A stretch of 64,000 nucleotides of DNA. Origin: Rhizobium sp. NZLR1. GTDB taxonomy: Bacteria > Pseudomonadota > Alphaproteobacteria > Rhizobiales > Rhizobiaceae. The notes beneath the pieces were generated by a model that did not search any database, had not been told where the DNA came from, and saw nothing but the letters and a program-made list of their open reading frames with translations. Numbering within the stretch: position 1 is the stretch's first letter; every line of letters starts with the position of its first letter. A program made the translations under genes and the position numbers. Positions 16,885 through 46,006 of this stretch are shown piece by piece. Location: contig NZ_CP071632.1 in assembly GCF_017357385.1 (NCBI RefSeq), forward strand, positions 3,677,501 through 3,741,500, in the 5' to 3' direction.

Positions 16885-17805
16885 ATGGGCGTCTGGATCG
16901 ACACCGACATGGGCTTCGACGACATCGCCGCCATTCTGGTGGTGGGTCAATCGGAATTTGACATCGACGGCGTATCGCTGGTCTTCGGCAATACGCCACT
17001 GCCGCAGGTGAAAACCAATGCCGCCTCCGCTGCCATTGCCTTCGGCTGGAAATTCCCGATCCACACCGGTCGCGCCATGCCTGTTCTCGGCAAGCTCGAA
17101 ACCGCTCAGGCGATCCTCGGCGAAACCGGCATCCCGACCATCGGCAGGAGCCTGCCGGAGGCCCCCGCTCTTGCTGAAAGCGATGCCTTTGCAGCGCTTT
17201 GCCGGTGGTTGGAAGATCAGGGCCAGCACCGTATGCTGGCGCTCGGGCCCCTCACCAATATCGCCGCCGTGGCGCTCGCTCGCCCCGATCTTGCCGCCCG
17301 TATCAGCGAACTCGTCTGGATGGGCGGCGGCGTCACCTCAGGCAACCATACGGCGTCTGCCGAGTTCAACGCGCTCGCCGATCCCGAGGCCCTGTCGATC
17401 GTCATCGCCCATGGCCTGCCGCTGCGCATGGTCGATCTCGATCTCTGCCGCAAGGTGCTGGCAAGGCCGGAGGATGCCGAGCCGGTGCGCGATGCCGGCG
17501 GCGCCAATGCCGATCTGATCGCCGATATGTTTTCGGGTTATATCCGCATCGGCACCAGCCGCGGCCGCCCGGGCATGGCGATCTACGATCCCACAGCCGC
17601 CGTCGCCTTCGTCGCTGCCGATGTCGTCAGCTTCCGGCCCGCGCGTATCGACGTCGAACTGCAGGGCGCCTTGACCCGTGGCCGCACCGTCGTCGAGACC
17701 CGCGCCACGCATGCAGCCTTCAATGCCCAGTTTGCCGCCGACATCGATGCCGACAGGGCGCGTGTCATTATCCTTGAAGCCCTGGTCAACGAGGCCCGGA
17801 AGTGA
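16885..17805 (+). CDS. inosine-uridine preferring-type nucleoside hydrolase
   Basis: This 306-residue enzyme cleaves the N-glycosidic bond of nucleosides, giving base plus ribose. The calcium-binding signature DTDMGFDD is at residues 6-13. The family LGPLTNIAAVALARP motif and the substrate segment GGNHTASAEFN-like (ASAEFNALADPEA) are present. ATG 16885 sits four bases after the ATPase stop. Together with the following adenine deaminase it would turn imported adenosine-type nucleosides into adenine and then hypoxanthine. Confidence 0.92.
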   Translation: MGVWIDTDMGFDDIAAILVVGQSEFDIDGVSLVFGNTPLPQVKTNAASAAIAFGWKFPIHTGRAMPVLGKLETAQAILGETGIPTIGRSLPEAPALAESDAFAALCRWLEDQGQHRMLALGPLTNIAAVALARPDLAARISELVWMGGGVTSGNHTASAEFNALADPEALSIVIAHGLPLRMVDLDLCRKVLARPEDAEPVRDAGGANADLIADMFSGYIRIGTSRGRPGMAIYDPTAAVAFVAADVVSFRPARIDVELQGALTRGRTVVETRATHAAFNAQFAADIDADRARVIILEALVNEARK

Positions 17806-39653: not shown

Positions 39654-39757
39654 CTGGTGCCTGGACGGCGCGGGGTTTCCCGCGCCGGAAAGCTGAGACC
39701 AAAACGAGACCGAGCAAAGCGCTCCTGTCCAGCCTGTCGAAATGTCCGTGATAAGAC

Positions 39758-39769
39758 TGGTAGCGGAGG
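39758..39769. repeat. candidate left attachment site (att core)
   Basis: The 12 bases TGGTAGCGGAGG are identical to the last 12 bases of the tRNA-Met gene (45930-45941) in the same orientation, 6.2 kb away. Confidence 0.55.
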
Positions 39770-39929
39770 TCCGTTCTGGTCACGACAGCCGACAGCCTGA
39801 ACGGATCGAGATCAGCTTGGGAACATGGCAGATCGCGCTTAAGCAAGCCATCAAGCAATATCTCGAAAAAGACAGGGACGTTGTCGCGGCGAACGACGTG
39901 GCCGCGACTGGTCGTATCGAGATTGAAGG

Positions 39930-40787
39930 CTAGGCCGCCTGCTTCGTCAGTTGTCTGCGCTTCTTGCACTTCCGGAACCAGGTAATCGCCAGCGCTTTCC
40001 AGAACTGAACCTTATGTGTGGCCGCGAAGATTTTGGCTTCGTCTTCCGCGGTGAATAGCAGATCCACAATCGCCTCGGTGAGATCCTCGACCGCAATCTT
40101 TTCGCAATACTCGGCGTCGGTCAGGAGCAGTTCCACCGCCTTGATCTGGGGCGCCGTCAGAGGTCCGCGCTCGGCACTTGCCAACACCTCGAGGATTTCC
40201 CGAGCGAGCTTCGGGCCTCTTCTGCTGATCAACGCCTCGATCTGCTTGATGGCGATAGTCTGGCGGACGCCGGTCCCGGTGTATGCGTTCGTCGTCTTCA
40301 ACACCTTCACGCCGGCCCTTGAGCAAACAAGTTCCAACGTCTGAGCATCTTCATCGGCTGCCGCGAGGGCCGCCTGGTGGAGCTGCAAAGTCGTTACACC
40401 CAATCGATCGGTATTTTGTCCGATAAACGCTTTTGCCTGAGCGATCGTACTATCCGCCTCGACGATCATCACCGGAATCAGGTCAATGTGCGGGTTTGAT
40501 GCCGCGGCGATTGCCGTGTGCTGCCCGTCGAGAACTTTTAAAATGGTCTGCCCGTCGCAGTCCGCGTAAGCGCAAATGGGCGGCTTGAACTTGACCCAAT
40601 CAAATCCCTCGATAATGCGCCTGATCTGCCGGCTTCCTTTTTCACTGATGTTCCGCTGATAGGCGGGATCCACGAATAAGTCCGTGGGCTTGACCAGTTC
40701 GAAAATGGGCATCCCGGTCGGCGGCGCCTGTGGCTCTAGCCCGGATATCCCCACGGGGGCGATTGGTCGAACGTTTTCCTGCATCAT
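39930..40787 (-). CDS. ParB-like nuclease-domain protein (DUF6551-like)
   Basis: This 285-residue protein begins with a ParB/sulfiredoxin-type fold (residues about 25-130): FELVKPTDLFVDPAYQRNIS, then QTILKVLDGQHTAIAAASNP, where the GQHTAIAA stretch matches the catalytic-box region of ParB-like proteins. The rest is helical, ending in a basic tail. Such proteins are common in phages and integrated elements and act in DNA processing or gene control. ATG 40787 has GAGG close upstream. It is divergent from the next genes across a region with a perfect DnaA box. Confidence 0.7.
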   Translation of the reverse strand: MMQENVRPIAPVGISGLEPQAPPTGMPIFELVKPTDLFVDPAYQRNISEKGSRQIRRIIEGFDWVKFKPPICAYADCDGQTILKVLDGQHTAIAAASNPHIDLIPVMIVEADSTIAQAKAFIGQNTDRLGVTTLQLHQAALAAADEDAQTLELVCSRAGVKVLKTTNAYTGTGVRQTIAIKQIEALISRRGPKLAREILEVLASAERGPLTAPQIKAVELLLTDAEYCEKIAVEDLTEAIVDLLFTAEDEAKIFAATHKVQFWKALAITWFRKCKKRRQLTKQAA

Positions 40788-40906
40788 GGTTCCTCGCTTC
40801 TGTTGCCCTACCTTGGGAGAGTGAGGCAGAGAAAAGAACGATCCTCGCCAAGCACCGTTTACGCGGCTCTAACGTCCACAGGACTCAGCACCGTTTCGGA
40901 GCACAT

Positions 40907-40915
40907 TGTGGATAA
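40907..40915 (-). promoter_or_regulatory. perfect DnaA box between divergent island genes
   Basis: The minus strand reads TTATCCACA, the consensus DnaA-binding nonamer. It lies in the 190-bp gap upstream of the ParB-like gene. No second clear copy or AT-rich unwinding element was found close by, so an origin is not claimed. Confidence 0.4.
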
Positions 40916-40978
40916 CTCGTTGGGCTTGACTATTCGCCGTTGCTCGCAGAACGTGCTTTCTTTTTGGAGGATACTGGC

Positions 40979-41275
40979 GTGAGCAATGACGTTGTTGTCA
41001 GGTCTGGGAATACGGTACGGGTAGGCGAGCATGACGCTGAAGTACGGGATGCCGATGCGCGCACAGTGTACGTTGACTTCTTCACCGAAAACCGCCTGAG
41101 CAATAGCACAGTCTGCATGTCCCTTGGGGCGCTGCACCTCGATGCCGCGAACGAACCGGTCATTGATGTTTCAACTCGTCTCCGCATGGATCTGGGGTTC
41201 GCTCAAATCCTGCACGGAGTCCTTGGAGAGCTAATCGCCTCGGCGTTGAAGCCGGTCGATCAGAAGCCGAATTAA
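40979..41275 (+). CDS. island hypothetical protein, 98 aa
   Basis: GTG 40979 follows TTTGGAGGATA. The product is a soluble 98-residue protein, strand-rich at the N-terminus (VVVRSGNTVRVGEHDAEVRD) with a helical end. I do not recognise it. Three bases separate its stop from the next start, so the two genes form a small operon divergent from the ParB-like gene. Confidence 0.55.
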   Translation: MSNDVVVRSGNTVRVGEHDAEVRDADARTVYVDFFTENRLSNSTVCMSLGALHLDAANEPVIDVSTRLRMDLGFAQILHGVLGELIASALKPVDQKPN

Positions 41276-41278
41276 CCC

Positions 41279-41584
41279 GTGGAAAAGCTTTCTAAGACAT
41301 TTGGCCTTTTGCTGAAGGCGCTTGGCGCAATCCTTGTTGGCTTAATAGCCCTCAGCGTGATCGTGATAGTTTTATCTGGGTGGTCTGCTTCCAATACCGA
41401 GCGCGCATCTTACGAATGTGTGTTGCGCCGCATGGATCATCACATCGCCGATGAATCTACAGGCGCCTATCACGACACTTGTATGGCATCGATGGGATAT
41501 AAGAGACTCACGGGCTGCGCCTCGTTGAATTTAGTCGCATCACCAGCTTTTTGCTTCGCGCCAGCCTGGCAGGCTTGGCGGTGA
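41279..41584 (+). CDS. island membrane protein, 101 aa
   Basis: GTG 41279 comes three bases after the preceding stop. The product has one long N-terminal helix (LLLKALGAILVGLIALSVIV), then a soluble part with four cysteines (YECVLRR, DTCMASMGYKR, GCASLN, AFCFAP), suggesting an exported disulfide-bonded domain. No family is recognised. The codon use is less GC-rich than the core genes. Confidence 0.55.
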   Translation: MEKLSKTFGLLLKALGAILVGLIALSVIVIVLSGWSASNTERASYECVLRRMDHHIADESTGAYHDTCMASMGYKRLTGCASLNLVASPAFCFAPAWQAWR

Positions 41585-41605
41585 CCCGGCAAGACGCGCA
41601 ACGTT

Positions 41606-41788
41606 ATGATCAGGTACATCGTCTGGGAGTGGATGGAGAAGAACACCTATCTACCGGTGCATGATCTCGATGAAGATGGTGAGGTGGATGGGAGTGCCTG
41701 AGAGCGTTATGCCTCGACAAACTCCATGCACTATAGGGAAGTCCAGCAACTGCTCGGCGAGCTTGGGCAGGCAAAAAGAATATCTTGA
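41606..41788 (+). pseudogene. small gene interrupted by an in-frame TGA
   Basis: From ATG 41606 the frame reads MIRYIVWEWMEKNTYLPVHD and continues to GSA, then a TGA at 41699-41701, then ERYASTNSMHYREVQQLLGE and on to a second stop at 41786. The composition is protein-like on both sides of the TGA, so this looks like a protein of about 60 residues broken by a nonsense mutation, perhaps TGG to TGA. Confidence 0.35.
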
Positions 41789-41850
41789 GTGGGATGGGCG
41801 TCTCTGAATCTTTGAAGACGCAGCAACGATCTATGACCTGGTGAGCATCA

Positions 41851-42672
41851 ATGACAAATGACGACAGCGAGGGAATGGACGATCACGATGACGAGGATTT
41901 CTACGGACATATTCCGTACAGGAATCCAGACGAGATCGGTATGCACGAGATCACGCAAGCCTTGAAAGGGCTGCACCTGCTCGGCGGTGACATGTTTCTC
42001 ACTATGCAGATCACAAACCTAGCGATCGTCGACCAATTCATAATGACTCAAGAGACCGAATTGCTTCAGACGTATAGGGCCAGAGATCGGACGCCAATGG
42101 ATTTGGCCATGTTCGTTTCTGCTCAATCGCAAATGTGGATTTTTGCCGCGTATGAGTTGATGAGGACATGGCGGTCGCGAGCAAAAGACACAGTTAAACT
42201 TGCTCGCAATGGAGGCCTTGAGATGAAGGCCAAGGCGCTGGAAGTGGGCCAGGGTTTTATGCACATGGGTCGCGAGGCGCGCGCGAGGGAGTTGAGAGAA
42301 ATTATTGCAAACCCAAGCCTGATTCAAGTGATTGAGGACGATCTCAAACGAGCGCATATCCCTTTTAAACGGATGGAGTTCATCCGCGTTTCCCTTGCAA
42401 AACACGAGGTCAGCGGAAAGCCTAAGGCAATCGCTTACGCGCCTGGATATGGTCGCATCAACATGTACTGTGGAGCACTCGATTTTCAGATGACCACAGG
42501 TCGCGTCATCTTGGGTGATATCAGCCGACGGGATATCGCAGATGAAATCCGCGCGATACCACAAGGGCCTATCCCCAGCGCCGAACAGTTGGCGGCGTTC
42601 GATGAATTCATGGCACTTAGTGATGACGCAGTCTTTCCTGCACCTGCGACGGACAGCGAGAGCGACTTTTGA
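41851..42672 (+). CDS. island hypothetical protein, 273 aa
   Basis: This soluble, mostly helical 273-residue protein has an acidic N-terminus (DDSEGMDDHDDEDFYGHIPY) and acidic C-terminus. The central region (VSAQSQMWIFAAYELMRTWR) looks like a helical bundle. No motif, signal or membrane segment is recognised. It has lower GC than the surrounding chromosome. A terminator lies 150 bases downstream and the next gene is convergent. Confidence 0.6.
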   Translation: MTNDDSEGMDDHDDEDFYGHIPYRNPDEIGMHEITQALKGLHLLGGDMFLTMQITNLAIVDQFIMTQETELLQTYRARDRTPMDLAMFVSAQSQMWIFAAYELMRTWRSRAKDTVKLARNGGLEMKAKALEVGQGFMHMGREARARELREIIANPSLIQVIEDDLKRAHIPFKRMEFIRVSLAKHEVSGKPKAIAYAPGYGRINMYCGALDFQMTTGRVILGDISRRDIADEIRAIPQGPIPSAEQLAAFDEFMALSDDAVFPAPATDSESDF

Positions 42673-42823
42673 CGCTGCCAACGCAGGCTCGGACGTTCCT
42701 CCACATGACCCAGCTGACACCGAGGACTACAAGCTCAAAGAGCTGCTTCAAAAATCTGCGTCTTCGCATATATGCGACCAGGAAAAATTCTGCGCGGTCC
42801 ACTCCCTGTAACACCCCATAACT

Positions 42824-42849
42824 AGCCCCGCTTAACCGGGGCTCCTTTT
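42824..42849 (+). terminator. terminator after the 273-residue gene
   Basis: AGCCCCG (42824-42830) pairs with CGGGGCT (42837-42843), followed by CCTTTTC. Confidence 0.7.
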
Positions 42850-42988
42850 CAACGTTGGGAACTTTTCCGATGATCTGAGGTTCGGCCACGAGGATCGCAC
42901 AGGCGCCCCATACTGGGGGTGTCCGCTTCCCTTCCTTCCTGTGCGGTCCGTCCTTTCCAGAACCTGCCCCGTTCGGCGGGGCTCTTTC
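42850..42988 (+). ncRNA. candidate structured RNA between two terminators
   Basis: GGATCGCACAGG (42892-42903) pairs over 12 positions, with one wobble, with CCTGTGCGGTCC (42938-42949). Inside lies a second hairpin CCCCA/TGGGG (42906-42918) and a pyrimidine tract CTTCCCTTCCTTCC. A second terminator (GCCCCG/CGGGGC, 42966-42982, then TCTTTCTC) ends the segment. There is no ORF with a ribosome site. A small RNA is inferred. No promoter was identified. Confidence 0.4.
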
Positions 42989-43000
42989 TCTAGAAATAAC

Positions 43001-43032
43001 AAAAAGCCGCCTTCCGATTAAGGAGAGCGGCT
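43001..43032 (-). terminator. terminator of the island phosphoribosyltransferase gene
   Basis: On the minus strand AGCCGC pairs with GCGGCT (43027-43032 with 43005-43010), extended by CTCCTT/AAGG-type pairs, followed by a run of five T. It lies 28 bases after the gene's stop. Confidence 0.8.
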
Positions 43033-43059
43033 GGTGTGGGTCGGTAGGGAAGAAAATGC

Positions 43060-43915
43060 TTAGCCGAACTTCTTGGGCTTATCGCGCAGCTTGTTTCTTG
43101 CCTCGCGATGCATTGCCCGTGTTACGGCCTCGCATGATTTTCTCTCCGAGGTGGACATAACTCGCACAACTGAGGACTCCGGCTGCTTCGGGACACGTGA
43201 ACCCCCGGTAATGAAAGCCGAGATGCTCGCCGCAAAACTTTGCAAGGTCGCCGCCATACATTTTCTCCAGCTTTGTTTGTGTGTCAGCGTCAAGTCGGAT
43301 CTGAACATCATTTCCCTCCCTCGAGGCAATCGCGCTCATTCCAATAACACGGCCACCTTTACCGAGGATGAACGACCGGAGGTCGGCCATTGTTCCCCCC
43401 TGAGTGATCACGTCATCCACTATGACATATGGGGTCTTCTTGTCAATTTCCCCATAAAAGGTGCTGCGGTGCGCTATTCTGACCCAGCGATCTAGTTTGT
43501 CTTTTGAGAAGTCTTTCATTTGGAAGATAGATTCATCCACCTCCCAGTCAAGTTCGTGAGCCAACCAGTTTGCGTAGCCCACCGCTAGGGCATTGTTGGA
43601 TTCGCCAATTTGAGCCGCCGGCGCGATAAGCTTTGGCTTAATGCCGGTTTTCATCTCCAGTGCCCGGAGTTTTTTGATGGTGTCTTCAACCACCAGGTCA
43701 TCTACAACCTTCAACGCAGCGTCCATATCCCGCTGGCCTTTGGCGGCGCTGTAGAGACCATGGCTGCTCAAGCAGACCTTTTTGGGGTCTGGCGCTTTCC
43801 ACCTACAGTTTACAAACACATCAGGGAAGTCACCCTCCCAGGGTACTCTATCCATGGAACCGAATCGCCGCGACCAAACTGAATCCGTATACCACCCGCC
43901 GATTGAAACACTCAA
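43060..43915 (-). CDS. island orphan phosphoribosyltransferase-domain protein
   Basis: This protein of up to 278 residues has a type I PRTase PRPP loop YVIVDDVITQGGTMADL (around residues 163-180), preceded by strands typical of the fold, and a cysteine-containing basic tail (GFTCPEAAGVLSCASY, KKQAAR). The start is unclear. A TTG at 43915 and an ATG at 43855 (MDRVPWEGDFPDVF) are both without a clear ribosome site. No purine or pyrimidine gene is nearby, so its base substrate and its role in the island are unknown. Confidence 0.65.
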
Positions 43916-44063
43916 GCACTGGTTTAGTAAGGGGTTTGCATGCGCGTGAAGTCAAAACTAGATATGGCGTCAGGCAACAAAAAAACGGCGCGGGGGAGCC
44001 GGCAGGCCCCTGCCACGCAGTAATAGTGTCGTCCAGCTTCGCCTGGTGCGTCTGCTCACCGAT

Positions 44064-44185
44064 CAATTGATCTTCAGCCAGTGCCTCAAGGCCGCAACAG
44101 CCCCGTCGCTGGCGTGGGCAACCATCCCTCCGATCGTCAGGCCGGCGAAGGCGATAGGGCCCTGAAATGCCGATGACGATGCCTG
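44064..44185 (-). pseudogene. frameshifted copy of a small one-helix membrane protein
   Basis: The minus strand encodes IAFAGLTIGGMVAHASDGAV, then AALRHWLKIN and a stop. A GISG start segment lies one frame off, and the N-terminal part is not recognisable. It is clearly related to the gene at 44678-44853. It shares the IAFAGLT and RHWLKIN blocks. Confidence 0.6.
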
Positions 44186-44268
44186 GTGTGGCCGGTCACC
44201 CTTATGGGTAGATATTCGCCGTGTTCTAAAGCGATTACAATCTTCGCTTTCGAAGAAGGGAGTGAACG

Positions 44269-44595
44269 ATGAAAGCGATCACGGTTTCTGGCCTCATTAT
44301 GCTAGCCTTCGCGTCTGGTGCATATGCCGCATCCATGACGGCGGAGCAGTTGAATAGCGAGTTGGTGGGCCACCCCATTCACTGGAAGTCAAAGACGCAA
44401 TCGGGCGTCACAACTTACAAACCAGACGGAACGATTGAAGCGACTGTCGACGGGGACAAGGCCACCTACAATGGCACATGGAGCATCAAAGGCAACAAGA
44501 TGTGCGAGAAGTTCGATAAGGAAAAATGTGCAACGATCAAGTCGCTTGGAGGTAAGAAATACTCCAAGGGGGCCGGAACGTTTACGGTGGAATAG
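44269..44595 (+). CDS. small exported protein, 108 aa
   Basis: GAAGGGAGTGAACG precedes ATG 44269. The signal peptide MKAITVSGLIMLAFASGAYA is cleaved before ASMTAEQ. The mature part of about 88 residues is strand-rich (WKSKTQSGVTTYKPDGTIEA, TYNGTWSIKGNKMCEKF) with two cysteines that may form a disulfide bond. This is a layout common to small DUF995-like periplasmic proteins of rhizobia. The function is unknown. Confidence 0.7.
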   Translation: MKAITVSGLIMLAFASGAYAASMTAEQLNSELVGHPIHWKSKTQSGVTTYKPDGTIEATVDGDKATYNGTWSIKGNKMCEKFDKEKCATIKSLGGKKYSKGAGTFTVE

Positions 44596-44677
44596 CGCCT
44601 GTTTTGGTTTTCCTCACCAGGCGGCACGAAAGCCGCCTGGGCTTGACCGCGGGCATTCTGAGCATCCTCGCATCTGC

Positions 44678-44853
44678 CTAATTGATCTTGAGCCAGTGTC
44701 GGAACCAAGCCACGGCACCATCACTCACATAGGCCATGATGCCGCCGACCGTGAGGCCGGCGAACGCGATCAGCCCTGAAATCCCGACCCCGAGAACTTT
44801 CATGCGCTTCCATTCCTCGATCGCCGGCTGGACCGACCGATCGCTGGTCGGAA
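44678..44853 (-). pseudogene. N-truncated small membrane protein, phage holin-like layout
   Basis: The minus-strand frame gives PTSDRSVQPAIEEWKRM, then VLGVGISGLIAFAGLTVGGI, and ends RHWLKIN. There is one helix preceded by a helical soluble segment. The protein-like content stops at about 44853, where the recombinase remnant begins on the other strand, so the first residues and the start codon are lost. An internal ATG (MKVLGVG) at 44805 might still give a 41-residue helix. Confidence 0.55.
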
Positions 44854-45973
44854 AGGCGAACTGGAGATCGTCGAGGAGGAGGCTGCCGTCGTGCGCCGGA
44901 TCTTCGACATGTATGTCGCCGGGGTGGCGCCGCGATCGATAGCGGCAGCGCTGAACAATGGCGGTGTTCCCGCGCCTCGCGGCAAGCAATGGAACGCTTC
45001 GACCATCAACGGCAACGGGCAGCGCGGCAACGGCATACTGAAAAATCCGCTCTATGCCGGCAAGATCGTCTGGAACCGCGTCCACATGGTCAAAGATCCT
45101 TCCACGGGGAAGCGGGTTTCGCGCATCAACGACGATGACAAGGTCGAGACGATCGACGCACCCCATCTTCGCATTGTCGATGAAGGGCTATTTCAGGCAG
45201 CTGCGAATCTGAAGGCTGAGCGCGGCGGCGCGCACGCCAGACACGTTCCGAAAAACAAGCGCCTCCTATCTGGGCTTCTGAAATGCAGCGAGTGTGGTGG
45301 CAGCCTTGTAATCTACGGCGCCGATCGGAACGGCCCGCGCGTGATCTGCAGCACTCACAAAGAATCCGGCAGCTGCTCGAACAATGCTCGCTACTATGTC
45401 GAGAAGATTGAGCGTGACGTAATCGACCGCCTGCGCGAAATGTTCGCCGACACGTCAATCATAGACGCCTATGTCGAAGAATATAAAGCCGAGAGCAAGC
45501 GGATCGCCGCTGAGCGTCGCAACAGCCGCGGGGATAGGGAACGCGCGCTGGCACAAGTGCTGGAGCGGATCGCGCGCATCATCGATCAGGTATCGAGGGG
45601 AACGATCGATGACGACGATGTTGCGGCCGTGCTGCCACCGCTGAAAGCGGAGCGAGAGAAGCTGAAGGCAGACCTTGCCGCCCAGGCGCCGGTGTCAAAC
45701 GTCATCGAGATCAAGCCGAGAGCAGTTACGAAATTCAGAGAGGATGTGGAAAGCCTGGCTGAGATCCTGAAAGATCGTGGCGCTGAGCCGACAGTCGAGA
45801 TGGCGAAGGCATTCCGTGAGGTAGTTTCGGGCGTGATCGTTTACCCGCGGGCTCCCGGTGACCCTTATCAGTATGAAATCAAGGGATGGCTGTCTGGGAT
45901 CGCCGGACCGGATCTGTCGGCTGTTGTAGTGGTAGCGGAGGAGGGATTTGAACCCCCGACACAAGGATTATGA
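44854..45973 (+). pseudogene. large serine recombinase without catalytic domain
   Basis: The frame opens with GELEIVEEEAAVVRRIFDMY, the start of the Recombinase domain, and continues with a zinc-ribbon segment (LLKCSECGGSLVIYG ... STHKESGSC) and a coiled coil (residues about 190-270). The N-terminal resolvase domain with the nucleophilic serine is absent, so it cannot cut DNA. The C-terminus runs into the tRNA-Met gene (EEGFEPPTQGL comes from tRNA sequence) and stops inside its anticodon arm. Confidence 0.8.
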
Positions 45974-46006
45974 TTCCTCTGCTCTGACCTACTGAGCTAC
46001 TCCGCC
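45930..46006 (-). tRNA. tRNA-Met (CAT), elongator
   Basis: The 77-base cloverleaf has acceptor GGCGGAG with CTCCGCT plus ACCA encoded, D-arm AGCTCAGTAGGTCAGAGC, anticodon arm AGGA-ATCATAA-TCCT with anticodon CAT at 45970-45972, and T-arm GGGGGTTCAAATCCCTC. The loop (ATCATAA) and T-arm resemble elongator methionine rather than the CAT-anticodon isoleucine tRNA. Its 3' end is the integration site of the neighbouring island. Confidence 0.95.

Follow-up and report, generated by a model that had tools for sequence, protein, structure and literature searches.

A 3841-type prophage remnant at tRNA-Met of Rhizobium sp. NZLR1 and a serine integrase gene very probably split at the attachment core

What kind of element came to rest at the 3' end of a tRNA-Met gene in Rhizobium sp. 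NZLR1, and what happened to the recombinase found at its edge? The island occupies positions 39,758 to 45,941 of the 64,000-nucleotide stretch analysed here (the window; contig NZ_CP071632.1, positions 3,677,501 to 3,741,500). An earlier note on this DNA had taken it for a decayed island integrated at the tRNA 3' end, which was borne out by its pair of attachment (att) cores, by unoccupied sites in 12 of 20 relatives and by a prophage of Rhizobium johnstonii 3841 in the same tRNA gene. Taken as a whole, the locus is very probably best explained as the remnant of a 3841-type prophage in which the phage attachment site, attP, lay within the integrase gene and integration swapped the C-terminus of the enzyme.

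The 12-mer TGGTAGCGGAGG occurs as two exact copies in the window, at 39,758-39,769 (attL core, + strand) and 45,930-45,941 (attR core, + strand), and a single match with one mismatch lies at 17,024. The right copy is the final 12 nucleotides of the intact tRNA-Met (CAT) gene (45,930-46,006, - strand), the integration target, so that the direct repeat reported by the earlier note was located at both ends. The same core is present at the left end of the 3841 element and of those of R. laguerreae FB206.

The integrase gene on both sides of the core

A large-serine-integrase remnant at 44,834-45,973 (+ strand) aligns with the 3841 integrase over its residues 155-533, at 73% identity. Its Pfam domains Recombinase (E 2e-20) and Zn_ribbon_recom (E 2e-11) adjoin the tRNA, where the earlier note had placed a recombinase remnant. 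The catalytic resolvase N-terminus is missing from the window copy and present in the full-length 3841 relative (PHROG 95 and 125, with solved homologues); the integrase is homologous to solved SPbeta integrase chains.

The C-terminus of the window integrase is encoded by the antisense strand of the tRNA gene and ends in ...VAEEGFEPPTQGL. At both ends of the island the core is read in one codon phase (N-TG GTA GCG GAG G), and the first open reading frame (ORF) of the island, an orphan at 39,742-39,933 (+ strand), crosses the left core in the same phase as the integrase. From codon 39,760 onward this ORF is a 57-amino-acid (aa) tail, which opens with VAEVRSGHDSRQPERIEISLGTWQIALKQAIKQYLEK... in the window and VAEVRSGHNSRQHERREISLGTWQIELKRAIKQYLEK... 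in 3841 and is homologous to tails that are joined to integrases in other loci. The 63-aa ORF, whose role had been missed at first, is the severed 3' end of the integrase gene.

This arrangement recurs. Ten of the 15 genus matches, including that of the window, have a tRNA-type integrase end (VAEEGFEPPTQGL or a close variant from another tRNA-Met), each with a tRNA-Met at the core; of the remaining five, four have no core (L119, L123, L124, L125) and one is joined to a tail (L126). Among viral-contig loci the same type of end was seen in 13 of 15, with L129 and L136 joined to tails instead; among genome-contig loci it was seen in 8 of 10, with L177 and L180 frameshifted. These collections overlap, as 3841, FB206 and, judging from identical scores, STM3625 occur in several. 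ARAGORN predicted a tRNA-Met starting at the core in all eight genome-contig loci, including L181, whose core is not exactly TGGTAGCGG. Among the 13 viral loci it did so in six; five of the other records end about there, and L130 and L135 have only the 3' half of the tRNA.

Native read-through from the core into a tail was found in the first FB206 element (L126, G052), L136, L129 and L095. FB206 carries two elements in tandem, of 15.4 and 27.6 kb. In addition to the tandem junctions, continuity of the ORF across the core was seen in two phage records: the integrase ORF of Rhizobium phage RR1-A crosses the core and ends in VAGERFEQSPQIILGRFVA, and that of Microcystis phage Mae-JY30 does so and ends in VAEVRSNPSPPFRFGVIAA. 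These are the distinct phages with more than 95% query coverage among the matches listed (30 of 467), RR1-A being represented by two accessions. The integrase architecture is real and conserved.

As a separate observation, the two serine-integrase elements of FB206 (L055-L057) sit in tandem in one tRNA-Met, and the inner integrase acquires the tail of its neighbour.

Selection on the tail and the possible meaning of its exchange

Selection was assessed on 18 tails from 18 loci, all distinct at the DNA level, out of 25 printed. Excluded were the short tails of L067, L074, L057 and L129, the non-alignable frame of L050, the near-duplicate L077 and L180, the genome of which was already represented; L071 (17 aa), L073 (protein identical to L152), L095 and G180 also stood outside the test. 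Eight disjoint pairs, near pairs picked by hand, covered 16 of the 18 tails. A joint alignment of tails with whole integrases (A1) misplaced the tails and was not used.

Over codons 5-38, 151 of 153 pairs had a lower proportion of nonsynonymous differences (pN, mean 0.36) than of synonymous differences (pS, mean 0.62). The two remaining forward frames gave the opposite average, pN above pS, with pN<pS in 41/153 and 42/153 pairs. Codons 9-38 gave pN<pS in 152/153 pairs and in all eight disjoint pairs. The signal was weak in codons 9-16 alone (ratio 0.85, 95/153 pairs); pN/pS was 0.41 in codons 17-34 (pN<pS in 148/153 pairs), and codons 17-38 had a mean pS of 0.75 and a mean pN of 0.35, with pN<pS in 148/153 pairs and 8/8 disjoint pairs. 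Codons 17-38 lie at least 38 bp beyond the core. The att half-site of a serine integrase spans about 25 bp, so these codons lie beyond it; constraint on attP at the DNA level alone does not account for the selection on them.

The integrase frame is open in 18/18 tails, and the other frames in 4 and 2 (forward), 11, 0 and 1 of 18; because tails shorter than 38 codons were excluded, only the contrast with the other frames is informative. Furthermore, residues G21, W23 and Q24 are invariant in the 12 tails of alignment A3. These observations indicate that the severed tail is under purifying selection at the protein level.

Two other origins of the signal were considered. An antisense gene over the tail was rejected, as the one antisense frame that resembles a selected one is open in 0/18 tails. 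The tail is also unlikely to be an independent gene, since codons 5-38 lack any ATG, GTG or TTG in four of the 18 tails, although an ATG in the host flank of 3841 speaks otherwise. The commonest start codon in this interval is a TTG at codon 27 (7/18), past the start of the conserved motif, and ATG occurs in one tail.

Modelled alone, the tail gives a single helix that starts at residue 23, at modest confidence (mean predicted local distance difference test score, pLDDT, 63.9). Distances between integrase bodies and between tails correlate across seven elements (Mantel r 0.63, 25 of 5040 permutations). The host transfer-messenger RNA (tmRNA) tag is ANDNYAEARLAA, and the short tails of L074, L129, RR1-A and Mae-JY30 end in LAA, FAA, FVA or IAA, resembling it. 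Such an ssrA-like ending is not general, because the short tails of L057 and L067 and all long tails, including that of the window, lack it.

The following course of events is very probable. A tailed phage of the 3841 type used a large serine integrase of its own to enter the 3' end of tRNA-Met. In this phage family attP lies inside the integrase gene, and the enzyme of the free phage continues over the 12-bp core into a C-terminal tail that the phage encodes. When the phage recombines with tRNA-Met the gene is cut: its main part then terminates inside the tRNA (VAEEGFEPPTQGL), whereas the tail is left at the far end of the prophage, beside a ParB-like gene in the subgroup of the window. In the window, as the comparison with 3841 shows, a later loss of about 32.7 kb removed the virion genes and the catalytic domain of the integrase.

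Several observations weigh against this reading. The L136 record has two cores 40 kb apart, and because the second sits inside the tRNA end, L136 is a tandem-prophage junction and not a free phage; L129 is probably another such junction, and L095, a joined copy, may be either free or integrated. In 3841 and FB206, the host flank places AGGAG and ATG directly before the core, so that the tail could be translated alone in the lysogen. Tail length varies from 19 to 73 aa (the non-alignable frame of L050 set aside), and one pair, R. mesoamericanum STM3625 and IMG/VR 3300048852_000035, combines a distance of 0.06 between integrase bodies with one of 0.35 between tails; the tails therefore evolve fast or are exchanged. 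The model of the whole integrase has no confident tail (pLDDT about 35). One antisense frame also gave pN<pS in 145/153 pairs, albeit in a frame open in 0/18 tails. At the site itself, the window flank between the VCBS gene and attL (39,654-39,757) differs from the small-ORF intergenic region of most unoccupied sites and resembles the flank of one relative, G019, to about 39,707, so the host flank is different or altered in the lineage of the window. Finally, the 24-kb island of G019 has no left 12-mer, even allowing one mismatch, and is therefore of another kind or altered.

Does the exchange of the C-terminus matter to the phage? The confident part of the integrase model stops at about residue 508, before the core. 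Because the catalytic, zinc-ribbon and coiled-coil parts all end before that point, the integrase probably still works, according to the model, in lysogens whose prophage is complete, and the tail would thus modify the enzyme and not complete it. The overlap could also be passive: attP would lie in the 3' end of the integrase gene because phage genomes are compact and place int beside attP, the tail would be dispensable and its exchange without function. We give this explanation slightly less than an even chance. The end of the confident model before the core fits it, as do the variation in tail length and ending and the existence of short-tail variants; the purifying selection on codons 17-34 and 17-38, well past the core, and the three invariant residues speak against it. 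A regulatory role, by which free-phage and lysogen forms would behave differently, for example in integration/excision bias or in stability, is a serious possibility that we would put somewhat short of even.

A more specific proposal, which we advance tentatively, is a bacterial-phage counterpart of the suicidal integrases of archaea. There would be two enzymes, one of the infecting phage and one of the lysogen, with the tail setting direction or lifetime, and the product of integration would act back on the enzyme as a latch on lysogeny. The tail would act as the predicted helix that starts with the G-x-W-Q motif, or through the ssrA-like ending in some short variants. Excision would restore the tail, and in tandem lysogens the inner integrase would regain one from its neighbour.

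Comparison with known systems provides partial precedents. The closest published idea that we found is DsiB of the Dehalococcoides ssrA islands (PMC3146451, here and below as far as the available text goes), the gene of which overlaps the att repeat in every case, no stop codon closing it within the island; its authors considered that it might be fully functional only on the circle or beside an adjacent island. Like the rhizobial integrase, DsiB is a large serine recombinase that targets the 3' end of an RNA gene, occurs in tandem elements and has a ParBc protein in its module. Unlike it, DsiB targets ssrA (tmRNA) instead of tRNA-Met and is CcrB-like with a second small recombinase, and the islands are not described as prophages in that text. 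Divergence at the overlap was seen by the authors, and that text shows no free form.

In mycobacteriophage BPs, attP likewise lies inside a phage gene and integration shortens the C-terminus of the protein, with an ssrA-like degradation tag on the viral form, but the gene encodes the repressor and not the integrase (PMC4557955, in the portion available). The archaeal SSV-type suicidal integrases also contain the att site within the integrase gene, which is split on integration; they are tyrosine recombinases, the gene of which is divided into parts, and the accessible text of the review calls them exclusive to archaea (PMC8371274). In the rhizobial serine integrase, by contrast, only the extreme C-terminus changes, and intact prophages keep the catalytic part undivided. 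The tripartite integrative and conjugative elements of Mesorhizobium, another rhizobial genus, have an integrase, IntM, that shares the met-tRNA target but is described, in the sections available, as a tyrosine recombinase of a conjugative element (PMC5882170, PMC9973854); an IntM-like element is ruled out for the window by the serine-recombinase domains of the remnant.

Phage RR1-A resembles the reading favoured here, an attP within the integrase gene, in having the core inside its integrase gene followed by a short tail. Its integrase is about 39% identical to that of 3841, and its core has a GGGAGAG form that is seen at another tRNA-Met variant (L121). According to the available part of PMC11476347, RR1-A-like prophages reside mainly at tRNA-Thr, whereas the core in the integrase gene of RR1-A itself is tRNA-Met-like; the same text gives tyrosine integrases for S. 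meliloti prophages, save one ambiguous case. PMC10083194 rebuilds attP/attB for thousands of these enzymes, and its main text contains neither 'tRNA' nor 'C-terminal'. In the open-licence literature, as far as its text was accessible, we found no description of the split-integrase arrangement in rhizobial phages, which is no proof of absence.

Serine integrases are widely used genome-engineering tools, for which telling integration from excision is a central question. If attP edits the C-terminus of its own enzyme across a whole phage family, integrase copies derived from prophages carry a tRNA-derived end and not the end of the infecting enzyme, and the tail offers a natural means of acting on directionality or stability. 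The possibility raised in 2011 for Dehalococcoides (PMC3146451, available text) is now joined by conserved tails, tandem junctions and phage records and can be tested directly.

Source of the island and its tRNA-Met site

The closest complete prophage that we found, that of R. johnstonii 3841, is 38.5 kb long and occupies the same tRNA-Met; it shares the 12-mer (cores at 4141999 and 4180466) and the left-end genes. It has family matches to endolysin, tail fibre, virion, head, portal, terminase, primase/helicase and repressor. From 39,758 through the ParB-like gene the window is homologous to the left end of this prophage (75.5% DNA identity), and after that in a few patches; homology resumes at 44,834 and runs through the integrase into the tRNA. 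Between 44,820 and 44,834, the stretch at about 6650-39371 of the fetched 3841 region (about 32.7 kb) is missing, and the deletion junction (44,821-44,838) has a short possible microhomology, recognised by eye. The cargo slot holds 469-aa and 321-aa ORFs in 3841, and the genes of a 273-aa and a phosphoribosyltransferase (PRTase)-like protein in the window. Judged against 3841, the deletion took the virion genes and the catalytic domain of the integrase.

Among the tested window ORFs we found no virion or packaging genes, except fragments matching Rhizobium phages. As these genes are missing in the window yet present in the collinear 3841 copy, the island is termed a remnant; the comparison indicates that it is an ordinary decayed prophage, a tailed prophage of the 3841 type after the 32.7-kb deletion. 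The earlier note had considered a satellite or integrative-plasmid relic. As an origin this was ruled out, the nearest full element found being collinear and encoding virion proteins.

It is also improbable that the remnant has been kept as a small cis-mobilisable element or satellite, moved through its att sites and ParB-like gene by the integrase of a related phage acting in trans. In favour of this, neither the two att cores nor the ParB-like gene is damaged, and a 5.0-kb remnant whose ends are the same lies in tRNA-Met of Rhizobium sp. R711. However, the two remnants share only their ends by BLAST, the integrase is incomplete in both, and the tested window ORFs matched no family of packaging or replication proteins.

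The tRNA-Met locus was compared among relatives by an mnmA search over 100 genomes, the mnmA-tRNA-Met region being taken from 20 of the same genus with scores among the highest. In 12 of these the site is unoccupied, with the VCBS gene, 400-682 bp, a single core (that of tRNA-Met itself) and then mnmA, the order that the earlier note had expected of island-free strains. The ParB-like, 273-aa, PRTase-like, 108-aa and 101-aa proteins were all absent from these 12 loci (0/5; tblastn, E 1e-5), so that the empty sites do not retain the island genes. Three other relatives have 2.6-5.8 kb between the VCBS gene and tRNA-Met, where the sole exact core is that of the tRNA; three carry islands of 24-43 kb (3841, G039; FB206, G052; and G019); and in G027 and G024 the VCBS gene was not found beside the tRNA in the fetched stretch.

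The 12-mer is taken as the att core because conserved intergenic DNA leads directly into it in 3841 and FB206, and it stands as the border of the island since the homology to the 3841 prophage begins exactly at 39,758. The copies at 39,758 and 45,930 are a real att pair. A chance copy at 39,758, the genes having arrived otherwise, is ruled out almost entirely by these two facts, short as a 12-mer is by itself (shuffled sequences gave a mean of 0.19 matches with at most one mismatch, and at least three matches in 1 of 100).

The GC content of the island, which the earlier note had called lower, is 0.50-0.60 in windows from 39.75 to 45.0 kb and 0.57-0.62 over the recombinase remnant, and mostly 0.58-0.66 in the 46-50 kb comparison stretch. 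GC is no marker of the left border, because equally low values (0.54-0.57) occur beyond it, in the VCBS/Ig-like gene at 38.5-39.65 kb.

Other genes of the island and observations at related loci

The intact 285-aa ParB-like protein (39,930-40,787, - strand; PHROG 1033, E 1.7e-13) is 89% identical to that of 3841. Matches of 66-89% identity lie beside attL in 3841, R711 and L084, with a further match in L101 and a partial one in G180; the gene is a recurrent attL neighbour in part of the phage group. The 273-aa cargo protein (41,851-42,672, + strand) has no Pfam, PHROG or PADLOC family, and relatives occur in 13 plasmid records (41-44% among the 10 matches listed). The 278-aa cargo protein (43,079-43,915, - strand), which we take to be PRTase-like from a sequence motif, has a PHROG match (22413, E 6.8e-26), to a family of unknown function, and otherwise only a weak ShosT match (E 0.0026). 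A relative (77%) was found in one other genome among 148 of the genus (G104, L192, 8424-9275), with no tRNA and no att core within the 19 kb around it. Thus, of the cargo listed earlier, the ParB-like and the family-less proteins are present, and the PRTase has a match of unknown function only.

Two diverged copies of a fragment of a phage gene, each matching a 142-aa gene of the 3841 prophage, lie at 44,047-44,172 and 44,676-44,820. They flank a 440-bp segment (44,202-44,640, + strand) that contains a small secreted-protein-like ORF (44,269-44,595) and is about 92-94% identical to many Rhizobium plasmid sequences. Low-coverage matches to genomes of Rhizobium phages were also obtained for fragments at about 44.07-44.84 kb.

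The first FB206 element seemingly carries restriction-modification-like genes, recognised by eye. A related integrase lies at tRNA-Met of another replicon (L117, G027:C3:23637-25046), its frame running on into a large upstream ORF.

In G007 (L034), an isolated longer copy of the 3' part of the tRNA, TGGTAGCGGAGTAGGGATTTGAACCCCCGA, lies 518 bp past the VCBS stop, and in L130 and L135 the integrase core is followed by the half tRNA and then foreign DNA. These three loci suggest that elements of a second kind, marked by a longer att repeat, also use this tRNA. The left flanks of attL in L152, L076, L084, L086, L093 and L161, which are from different sources, share a similar sequence (TGTTACCTATGTCTCCGG and variants) that may be the end of an insertion sequence or a common host flank.

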